Of a stretch of DNA of 33,781 nt, positions 9,337 to 12,302 are shown in pieces. Origin of the DNA: Nanobdellota archaeon. Lineage in GTDB: Archaea > Nanobdellota > Nanobdellia > Woesearchaeales > GCA-2686295. The position numbers and the translations under genes were made by a program. The stretch covers positions 1-33,781 of the forward strand of contig JAHJQL010000086.1 of NCBI GenBank assembly GCA_018819065.1. The letters are read 5' to 3'. The notes beneath the pieces were generated by a model. The model searched no databases and was not told the DNA's origin. It worked only from the letters and a program-made list of their open reading frames with translations. The number at the start of each line of letters is the position of its first letter. Position 1 is the first letter of the stretch.

Positions 9337-9816
9337 CTAAGGTATTCTTTCTAGTTGTTTTAGAAGGTAGTTTTCTTCGTCATCTGAGAATTTGTCTTGT
9401 GGCTGGTCATCTACTTTTGGAGGGTTTTTTGGCTCTTCTTTAAAAGTTATCTTGCTTGATATTGAGCTTGTGACTGAGTCCATGTCTGGCGCTGAGACTT
9501 GTTTTGGAGTCCATAAAAAATTTAAGCCGTCATCTTGCTTTCTTGCAACTACATTTATGACAAATCCATCTTGCTCATCAGTGATTATGTTTGTTCCTTG
9601 AGCGCCTAATATTTGAAACAAGCTAGTTGCAGACACGTTTGCGAGGTTGAATATGTGTGCAACTTCTTCTTCGCTTAGTTCTTCAATGCTTTTAACGGGC
9701 TTTTTTGGAATTATTAGTATGTGTCCTTTGGCAGCTGGGTTTTTTACTAAGTATGAGAATACTATGTTGTCCTCGTATATTACTCTGCTCTTATCGTTTA
9801 TTAATTCCTGCTTCAT
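9337..9816 (-). CDS. HIT domain-like protein, degenerate active site
   Basis: 'VFSYLVKNPAAKGHILIIPKKPVKSIEELSEEE' typical of HIT; His triad replaced by 'FVINVVARKQDDGLNF'. Confidence 0.8.
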   Translation of the reverse strand: MKQELINDKSRVIYEDNIVFSYLVKNPAAKGHILIIPKKPVKSIEELSEEEVAHIFNLANVSATSLFQILGAQGTNIITDEQDGFVINVVARKQDDGLNFLWTPKQVSAPDMDSVTSSISSKITFKEEPKNPPKVDDQPQDKFSDDEENYLLKQLERIP

Positions 9817-10643
9817 TTTGTAAACATGTTTGTTATGTTGTCCAAGAGGTTTTTGTTCTCTTTCTTTTTATCAGGCAGTGTTTGTTTTGGTGCTTCTTCC
9901 TCTTTTTTTGTGCTTTCTTCTTGTTCTGCAAGCGTCTTTTTTGCTGTTTCTATCTGTTTTAGTATGTCTGATAGCTTGTCAATATTAACGCCTTGAAATA
10001 ACAGTTTTAATTTCTGGTTTGTCTCCATCTCTTTTTTTACTTGTTCAGGGTTGTTTATGATAGCTTCTTTTAGCTGAGGGTTTTGGTCTATTATCTTTGC
10101 AAGGTCGTCTTTGTTTGGTGGTTGAGCTAACACTTTTCCTTCTTGTTGTAATTGTGATTGCATCATCTTTGTAAGGCTTGATTTGAGGGGCTCTAGTAGC
10201 TCGTCTTGAGAAATATTTTTTGTAGGCGGGTTGAAATTGTCTAGTCCATCTCCATTATCTCTAGGTATTATGTGGAATAGGAAGTGTGGGCTTTGCTGGC
10301 CTGCAACCCCTCCGTTTGCTATGAATATAGTGGTTTTTGTTGATGGAACACCCTGCTTTACACCCCTAGACAAGTACTTGACATTTTTAAAGATGTGAGA
10401 AAGAGTTTCTTGAGGGATTAACGGCATTATTTGTGTGTGTTTCTTTGGCATTACAAGAATGTGTCCCTTGACTGCAGGATATATATCTAGTATAGCCATC
10501 ATTTTGTCATCTTCATAGACTTTGTGTGACGGAACTTCTCCTGCCATTATCTTGCAAAAAACGCAGTTCTTCTTTTGTAGTTCTGCAACCTGCTCTGGGC
10601 TCATGTTTTGTTGTTCTTCTTCAGTTGGCTCAGAATCACTCAT
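9813..10643 (-). CDS. HIT domain protein with coiled-coil C-terminal extension, degenerate triad
   Basis: 'CVFCKIMAGEVPSHKVYEDDKMMAILDIYPAVKGHILVMPKKH', 'SPHFLFHIIPR'. Confidence 0.9.
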   Translation of the reverse strand: MSDSEPTEEEQQNMSPEQVAELQKKNCVFCKIMAGEVPSHKVYEDDKMMAILDIYPAVKGHILVMPKKHTQIMPLIPQETLSHIFKNVKYLSRGVKQGVPSTKTTIFIANGGVAGQQSPHFLFHIIPRDNGDGLDNFNPPTKNISQDELLEPLKSSLTKMMQSQLQQEGKVLAQPPNKDDLAKIIDQNPQLKEAIINNPEQVKKEMETNQKLKLLFQGVNIDKLSDILKQIETAKKTLAEQEESTKKEEEAPKQTLPDKKKENKNLLDNITNMFTK

Positions 10644-10742: not shown

Positions 10743-10850
10743 TCAGACTTTTCCTGCTACGTGAAAACTTTTTTTTATCACTGCATCCATTGGTAACTCG
10801 TTAAGCTCATCTTCGCTGTATATCTTTCCTGACTCGTCTTTGTAAATCAT
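10743..10850 (-). CDS. Micro-ORF, 35 aa (MIYKDESGKIYSEDELNELPMDAVIKKSFHVAGKV)
   Basis: ATG 6 nt after the stop of the upstream micro-ORF; shares DESGxxY-x-E core with neighbouring micro-ORFs. Confidence 0.5.
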   Translation of the reverse strand: MIYKDESGKIYSEDELNELPMDAVIKKSFHVAGKV

Positions 10851-10856
10851 TTACAC

Positions 10857-10913
10857 TCACTCGTCTTCGTCTTCTTCGTACAGAAAGCCTGACTCATCTA
10901 TTCTCCAAGTCAT
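10857..10913 (-). CDS. Micro-ORF, 18 aa (MTWRIDESGFLYEEDEDE)
   Basis: Paralogous to the 11084-11146 micro-ORF with synonymous codon differences; AGGGG upstream and TATA-like ATATAAATAA at 10961-10970 (minus). Confidence 0.6.
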   Translation of the reverse strand: MTWRIDESGFLYEEDEDE

Positions 10914-11001
10914 ATAATCCCCTTTATTCTTTTAACCCCTAATTTATCTAATTGTTTTTGTTATTTATATTTTTTTTGTTTTCAAAACGTACTTAACTCT
11001 A

Positions 11002-11082
11002 TCATCTTAGCAGCCCTATGTCATTTGGGCTTTCTATTTCTTTATTTGATAGTTGCGGCTTTTCAAGCAAAGGACACTCCAC
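11002..11082 (-). CDS. Micro-ORF, 26 aa, GTG start (MECPLLEKPQLSNKEIESPNDIGLLR)
   Basis: GTG one nucleotide after the stop of the 11084-11146 micro-ORF; uninterrupted frame; plausible composition. Confidence 0.35.
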   Translation of the reverse strand: MECPLLEKPQLSNKEIESPNDIGLLR

Positions 11083-11083
11083 T

Positions 11084-11146
11084 TTAATCTTCATCCTCTT
11101 CAAATTCCTCGTACAAAAAACCACTATTATCTATCTTCCAAGACAT
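11084..11146 (-). CDS. Micro-ORF, 20 aa (MSWKIDNSGFLYEEFEEDED)
   Basis: Strong Shine-Dalgarno GGAGGT 5 nt before ATG; paralog at 10857-10913. Confidence 0.62.
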   Translation of the reverse strand: MSWKIDNSGFLYEEFEEDED

Positions 11147-11270
11147 TTTGTACCTCCTATTTTTTTTTGGGGTAAAAACTAACAAGTTTCTTAATTCTTA
11201 ATCTAATTATCTCCCCCAATTGTGTGATGTAAAACTTTATATATATATTTTTTCCACACCTTATGTATAT

Positions 11271-11290
11271 ATATGTGAATATTCACATAT
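11271..11290. promoter_or_regulatory. Perfect 20-bp palindrome ATATGTGAATATTCACATAT; candidate operator
   Basis: Read directly; lies 5' of TATA-like gatatataaata and ATG at 11331; a second IR ACACCTTAT (11256-11264)/ATAAGGTGT (11308-11316) surrounds it. Confidence 0.6.
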
Positions 11291-11330
11291 TTTCAAAAGA
11301 TATATAAATAAGGTGTCTTTGCCATATTTT

Positions 11331-12302
11331 ATGCTTAGAAAAATAGTTCAACACGGACCGTCGACGATGACTGTTTCTCTCCCGACTAAATGGGTTAAGA
11401 AGAATGGTGTTCAAAAAGGGGATGAAGTAAACCTTGAGGAAGAAAACAACAGAATAATTGTGGGTGTCAACAAAAGCTCAAGGAAAAGACTGGCTGAAAT
11501 AGATATAACAGGGCTTAGCAGATCAGCAATCATGTTTTATCTCAGAAGCATATACAGGCAAGGTTATGATGAGGTAGTTATTCACTTCAAGAATCCGAAG
11601 ACGATTTATTATGATTTGAAAAAAGAGGAGAAGGTCATATCAGTAATTCACCAGGAAATAAACAGGTTGATTGGATTTGAAGTGACGCAGCAAAGAGAAG
11701 ACTTTTGTGTGATAAAAGACCTTTCAGGTCCAAGTGAAGGAAAACTTGACATAATAATAAAGAGGATTTTGTTTTTGTTAAAAGACGCAATTGATGACTC
11801 GGTTGAAGCAATTAAGAATAAGAATTATGATAAACTAGAAACTATTGAAGAGAAGCATGATACAATAACCAAGTTTATAAGTTATTGTCTGAGAATGTTT
11901 AACAAGCGACCAGATTCATCACCTGAGAATATTCACGGCCTGTATCACATCCTGTGCAGCTTAGATGTAGCAACAGACACCATAAAATACTTTGCAAGAT
12001 ATGTTATTCGCCAAAAACCTGCTTTCTCCAAAAAAAGCATCTTAATATTAGAAAACTTAAGAGGACTCAGCAGCTATACTCGCGAAATATTGTTTGACCT
12101 TAATTTGAATAAAGTCATTGAATTCATGAAGTTAAGGGCTGATACAAAGGACTTGCTTGATGAATTGATGATTGAAGGAAAAAAGAAAGATGTCAGCCTA
12201 GTATTTTATTTAGCGTCTATGCTTGAGCTTATGAGAGATTTAATAGAGGCAAAAATGAGTATAACTCCTCCAAAGAATACTAGGGAAATAAGTGAGGAGT
12301 AA
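11331..12302 (+). CDS. AbrB-like DNA-binding domain fused to PhoU domain (phosphate uptake regulator-type)
   Basis: Start set to ATG 11331 (in frame with ORF 11220), 'MLRKIVQHGPSTMTVSLPTKWVKKNGVQKGDEVNLEEENNRIIV' AbrB-type hairpin; helical PhoU-like remainder. Confidence 0.88.
   Translation: MLRKIVQHGPSTMTVSLPTKWVKKNGVQKGDEVNLEEENNRIIVGVNKSSRKRLAEIDITGLSRSAIMFYLRSIYRQGYDEVVIHFKNPKTIYYDLKKEEKVISVIHQEINRLIGFEVTQQREDFCVIKDLSGPSEGKLDIIIKRILFLLKDAIDDSVEAIKNKNYDKLETIEEKHDTITKFISYCLRMFNKRPDSSPENIHGLYHILCSLDVATDTIKYFARYVIRQKPAFSKKSILILENLRGLSSYTREILFDLNLNKVIEFMKLRADTKDLLDELMIEGKKKDVSLVFYLASMLELMRDLIEAKMSITPPKNTREISEE

Follow-up and report, generated by a model that had tools for sequence, protein, structure and literature searches.

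Conserved micro-genes pep1 and pep2 encode new families of archaeal micro-proteins in Woesearchaeales

Three micro-genes on one strand of the window, pep1a, pep1b, and pep2, were established by sequence comparison as real, conserved, and protein-coding. All results were computed from genome sequences, most of which are MAGs. The window, that is, the whole stretch of 33,781 nucleotides analyzed, is contig C82 of a 1.52-Mb Woesearchaeales (DPANN archaea) genome that is 95.5% complete. The named relatives of this genome are Candidatus Woesearchaeota and DPANN MAGs. The products of pep1 and pep2 form new families within a kind already known, that of archaeal micro-proteins. Our preferred reading, to which we give a little less than an even chance, is that they are stress-regulated intracellular binding micro-proteins. 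For the window's own pair, whose neighbors (HIT, AbrB-PhoU, and Elp3-like) are not stress genes, the link to stress is indirect.

The three ORFs were found on the minus strand at the same coordinates as in the original prediction, and its 6-nt and 1-nt gaps between starts and stops were right (Table 1). The GGAGGT ribosome-binding site assigned to pep1a was recovered as AGGAGGT, and the TATA-like box assigned to pep1b was also located, by consensus only. The predicted cluster had included a 26-aa GTG ORF, which an in-frame ATG extends to 30 aa, overlapping the end of pep1a. This ORF had no counterpart at the orthologous loci examined. Furthermore, it did not match the pep2 profile in either its 26- or its 30-aa form, and it was thus rejected as a degenerate pep2. 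The true start codon of the AbrB-PhoU gene is probably internal to its ORF. No cysteine was found in the window's pep1a, pep1b, or pep2, nor in the consensus, and no hydrophobic segment or signal sequence was detected in pep1 or pep2. Both products are acidic or neutral.

Table 1. Features of the pep1-pep2 locus in the window
Feature	Position	Strand	Basis or remark
pep1a, 20 aa, MSWKIDNSGFLYEEFEEDED	11084..11146	-	ORF read from sequence
pep1b, 18 aa, MTWRIDESGFLYEEDEDE	10857..10913	-	ORF read from sequence
pep2, 35 aa, MIYKDESGKIYSEDELNELPMDAVIKKSFHVAGKV, of the wider pep2 family	10743..10850	-	starts 6 nt past the pep1b stop
Shine-Dalgarno AGGAGGT of pep1a	11152..11158	-	sequence
TATAAATA, candidate TATA box of the pep1b-pep2 unit	10962..10969	-	consensus only
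GTG ORF, 26 aa, outside the conserved set	11002..11082	-	pep2 profile and orthologous loci
AbrB-PhoU regulator gene, divergent neighbor	11220..12302	+	Pfam MazE_antitoxin 5e-7, PhoU 0.0048, below cut-off
HIT-domain gene downstream of pep2	9813..10643	-	Pfam HIT 1e-19
TATA-like TTTTATATA belonging to the HIT gene	10674-10666	-	sequence
20-bp perfect palindrome ATATGTGAATATTCACATAT	11271..11290	.	intergenic, divergent AbrB-PhoU/pep1a

Selection was analyzed with eight pep1 and six pep2 sequences, some of the comparisons being between paralogues. The pooled pS/pN values were 0.79/0.185 for pep1 and 0.74/0.26 for pep2. The resulting pN/pS ratios of 0.24 and 0.35, respectively, are rough because synonymous sites are near saturation. 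The differences cluster at third codon positions, and amino-acid conservation runs along the peptides. Ungapped DNA identity was 0.73 (pep1) and 0.67 (pep2) within the frames but dropped to 0.29-0.38 over 60 nt of flanking sequence. By these measures, the pep1 and pep2 frames are under purifying selection and clearly maintained as protein, and the change is mostly synonymous, as expected from the selection on protein rather than DNA that had been proposed. The frames are also kept in relatives across the GTDB family, a check that the original prediction had named. Its paralogy of pep1a and pep1b held: 11 of 14 N-terminal residues are identical, whereas short ATG ORFs from 40 Markov-resampled windows reached at most 8 for any pair. 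Paralogy of the third member, pep2, was not supported. The likeness of pep1 to pep2 is limited to D-x-x-G-x-x-Y, profile comparison gave a probability of 3.4%, and pep2 belongs to a much wider family of its own.

In the same genome, contig C46 carries a further pair, pep1 MTWKIDNMGFLYEDYEEEI followed by pep2 MVYEDLFGKKYTDEDLNNIDPLWLDCLEIHISE, which brings the totals to three pep1 and two pep2 genes. Near this pair is a highly acidic ORF of 51 aa that has a start and spacing of its own (L002:2919-3074, minus strand; MSEYSYMDEDDFEQDDDFEEEEEEEGDEDDDDDNF...). Pairs of pep1 and pep2 were found in five genomes of the GTDB family. A pep1 DNA pattern, whose reversed control gave no match, detected pep1 in four of the eight genomes of this family; outside the genus, it had no match among 147 genomes of the order. 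In the named collection, the pattern gave four loci in three Woesearchaeota/DPANN MAGs, plus one match in Paenibacillus (L014), which sits inside a longer frame and was rejected as chance. HMMs added pep1 in G006 (MTWKIGSEGVLYEDCEEEEE), G005 (MAWNKSYAGFLYEDNDDEEEDE), and G007 (MTWKVHANGMISEEEDEES...). The final E-values of these three are inflated because all are rows of profile A4; before inclusion, the values were 1e-4 for G006 and only 0.05 for G005, and what identified the G007 gene was that a pep2 gene directly follows it.

In the window, G002, and G003, the genes run pep1-pep2-HIT, and an AbrB-PhoU gene lies upstream in divergent orientation; G004 keeps pep1 and HIT without pep2. The pair occurs without HIT at three loci (C46, G004 C15, and G007 C15), and pep1 is alone at G004 C22 and in G006. 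Since pep1 is absent from most pep2-family loci, the pair is not obligatory. A kinship of pep1 to the acidic GY family was not supported. In another family, a pep1-like ORF, M[TA]WNVDPNGDLVEEDEELEKE, was observed at L145/L146 (G341 and G339). Its match is weak (E 0.004-0.016), and its kinship to pep1 is unproven. The gene preceding it is small and zinc-ribbon-like, and its sequence looks like that of ribosomal protein S27ae.

For pep2, profiles were built stepwise (A2, A3, and A5). Relatives were detected in 37 of 359 Woesearchaeales genomes at E<=0.01 and in 29 of 359 at E<1e-5, members already in a profile matching by construction. The family spans 20 families of the order. In a 360-genome sample of the phylum, whose out-of-order share is unlisted, every match fell within the same order. 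Thirty-seven pep2-family genes were taken from outside the window, and most possess a GGAGGTGA-type Shine-Dalgarno sequence. The consensus is M-[LIV]-[YF]-E-D-x-x-G-x(5)-E-E-[VL]-[DN]-x-L-S-x-x-E-I-E-E-x-x-[IL]-H-V. In Pfam and NCBIfam, neither the pep2 family nor single pep1 or pep2 members gave a match beyond chance. The PDB sequences matched by the pep2 profile were Myc-tag stretches and similar, and nothing specific was found in the literature on DPANN micro-proteins. At the level of sequence, pep2 is established as a new, undescribed family, absent from Pfam, NCBIfam, and PDB.

AlphaFold2 with four sequences predicted a strand-strand-helix-helix-strand arrangement for the window pep2 (pLDDT 81), and the L012 orthologue alone gave the same fold (pLDDT 92.3). 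The pTM of the pep2 predictions was 0.43-0.55. Foldseek searches of PDB and viral models with the pep2 models detected no significant fold relative; weak RING/U-box matches recurred among the non-significant results. The fold is confidently predicted as a small module of two strands, two short helices, and a third strand, and pep1 probably consists of one hairpin plus an acidic tail. The idea of a short binding peptide, raised in the original prediction, is at most compatible with the predicted pep2 fold and with the genomic context.

Neighbors of pep2-family genes were annotated by Pfam for those scanned and by clustering or reading for the others. Clustering gave 15 loci with Lrp/AsnC-like regulators, of which the one member run against Pfam matched MarR below threshold; 10 with AbrB-PhoU proteins, as in the window; and 5 with an HTH protein of the ArsR-like type, about 134 aa long. 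Of 75 nearest ORFs on either side of the pep2-family genes, 23 were such regulators; among 322 ORFs lying farther away in these stretches, the figure was 10 (Fisher p 2e-11). The counts are not phylogenetically independent because orthologous loci are included. Hsp20 genes lie upstream of pep2 in three families (L113, L118, and L122), and GroES and/or GroEL adjoin three of the loci (L122, L129, and L132). Rubrerythrin was found near pep2 at L125 and desulfoferrodoxin at L124, and many pep2-family loci possess neither a chaperone nor a redox gene. Taken as gene adjacency, the non-random context of the pep2 family is established.

Other small genes were observed in these surroundings. Of 350 Woesearchaeales genomes, 297 carry one to seven copies of an acidic micro-protein family, EEAFMKGY (about 43-72 aa; consensus ..EDDEISPEEEAFMKGYDEA..), that has no Pfam or NCBIfam match. 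One copy is in the window's own genome (G000 C76:287-388), others are at L149-L178 and in many other genomes, and a member lies upstream of pep2 at L121 and L137. Apparent micro-protein families beside pep2 genes are YxxGYNRKLxGxLYDF (31-35 aa; L113, L119, L122, and L107) and ITIxGxRxKMTVDxxKML (32-38 aa; L109 and L119). Another apparent family, YWEHALGKIENRM, coiled-coil-like and of about 50 aa, also occurs beside pep2 genes (L134, L136, L138, L139, and L130).

At the second pair (pair B, at the three loci without HIT), the palindrome TTAACTATAGTTAA is located just downstream of the TATA box. Within the family, this 14-mer is also found at the promoters of genes for Fe/Mn SOD, an MsrB-MsrA fusion, hemerythrin, and a DoxX protein, as well as at an MscS-like gene divergent from pair B and at the promoter of a 340-aa protein. 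The latter (about 340 aa; TFGPGTF..QG.LNCIILTK) has no Pfam match; three genomes of the genus (L074, L064, and L065) have TTAACTATAGTTAA where its gene starts. At an independent locus in another family (L128), a pep2 gene directly follows TTAACTATAGTTAA. Six copies of TTAAC-N4-GTTAA were counted in the 377 kb of sequence fetched, and five of them are upstream of pep2, four of those at related pair-B loci. It also follows the TATA box in 6 of the 27 acidic EEAFMKGY family promoters checked. Pair B and oxidative-stress genes thereby share TTAACTATAGTTAA as an operator-like palindrome. The window contains no exact or one-mismatch copy of TTAAC-N4-GTTAA. Its own palindrome TGTGAATATTCACA, found only in the window, was rejected as a regulon marker; across eight genomes of the family, the 14-bp core of the 20-bp palindrome had no second occurrence.

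In the preferred reading, pep1 and pep2 are real intracellular micro-proteins, for the most part encoded side by side in a compact pair. Their production would be controlled by stress-responsive repressors and induced by stress. They may work together and would exert their effect by binding to a stress-response protein, such as chaperone, redox, or regulatory machinery. An unlikely but serious contender is that pep2, with pep1, is an effector or inhibitor of the adjacent transcription factor, a feedback partner binding the Lrp-like or AbrB-PhoU product. A regulator lies next to or near the gene in 17 of the 20 families that have pep2, and the regulators are of three kinds. However, a single family of micro-proteins would then have partners from three unrelated families of regulators, and pair B and several other loci have no adjacent regulator.

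Short ORFs lie upstream of HIT in four genomes, as would be the case if they were leader peptides that regulate HIT through their own translation. We regard this as improbable because a separate TATA-like box lies shortly before the HIT start and the pair also occurs without HIT; the pair thus lacks the fixed position before a controlled gene, on a shared transcript, that characterizes leader peptides. Amino-acid sequence is conserved along pep1 and pep2, and no run of regulatory codons was found. A toxin-antitoxin or secreted two-peptide system would fit two tiny, tightly packed, and sometimes duplicated genes, but it is very doubtful, given acidic or neutral products with no hydrophobic segment or signal sequence. 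Each family also has solitary members (two pep1 genes and most pep2 loci), and pep1-pep2 is thus not the obligatory two-gene unit of toxin-antitoxin systems. A further reading is that of chance ORFs or decayed gene fragments, in favor of which most gene callers do not accept ORFs this short. The probability of this verges on the negligible: the frames are conserved across genomes with mostly synonymous change, resampled sequence gave no comparable pair, and Shine-Dalgarno sequences precede most pep2-family genes. Chance or decay was refuted for pep1a, pep1b, and pep2, but not for the 26-aa GTG ORF.

Returning to pep1 and pep2 as stress-regulated binding micro-proteins, several archaeal systems can be compared. 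The zinc-finger micro-proteins of Haloferax volcanii (C(P)XCG, e.g., HVO_0758) are <70 aa, folded, and soluble, and several are needed for stress adaptation (PMC6562870, PMC10716476, PMC11241148). They possess two C(P)XCG motifs, whereas the window's pep1 and pep2 are without cysteine and differ in predicted fold; pep1a, pep1b, and pep2 are thus not members of that group. Brz of Halobacterium salinarum, a small protein with a zinc-finger motif, is encoded beside the gene it regulates (PMC2253796). The likeness is that of a small archaeal protein encoded beside another gene; the zinc finger of Brz is a difference, and for pep1 and pep2 a regulatory role would be hypothetical. In the HSR1-hsp20 operon of Archaeoglobus fulgidus, which includes a small Hsp, the operator CTAAC-N5-GTTAG is proposed to block the transcription machinery (PMC9133787). 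Pair B resembles this archaeal stress locus in having a palindromic operator-like element. In contrast, its palindrome is TTAAC-N4-GTTAA rather than the HSR1-type sequence, and the product of interest is a micro-protein.

Archaeal small proteins have received little study, and Nanoarchaeota ranks among the top phyla in small-ORF density (PMC11364881). A 34-residue protein predicted to fold without cysteines would be of structural interest. The pep1 and pep2 genes are too short for standard annotation, yet they have a specific context of regulators, chaperones, and a defined palindrome. It is possible, though we lean against it, that Woesearchaeales use a layer of stress control built from several families of undescribed micro-proteins. 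These would include pep1, pep2, and the acidic EEAFMKGY family, which is near-universal, with genes next to chaperones and stress regulators and in part governed by a single TTAAC-N4-GTTAA operator.
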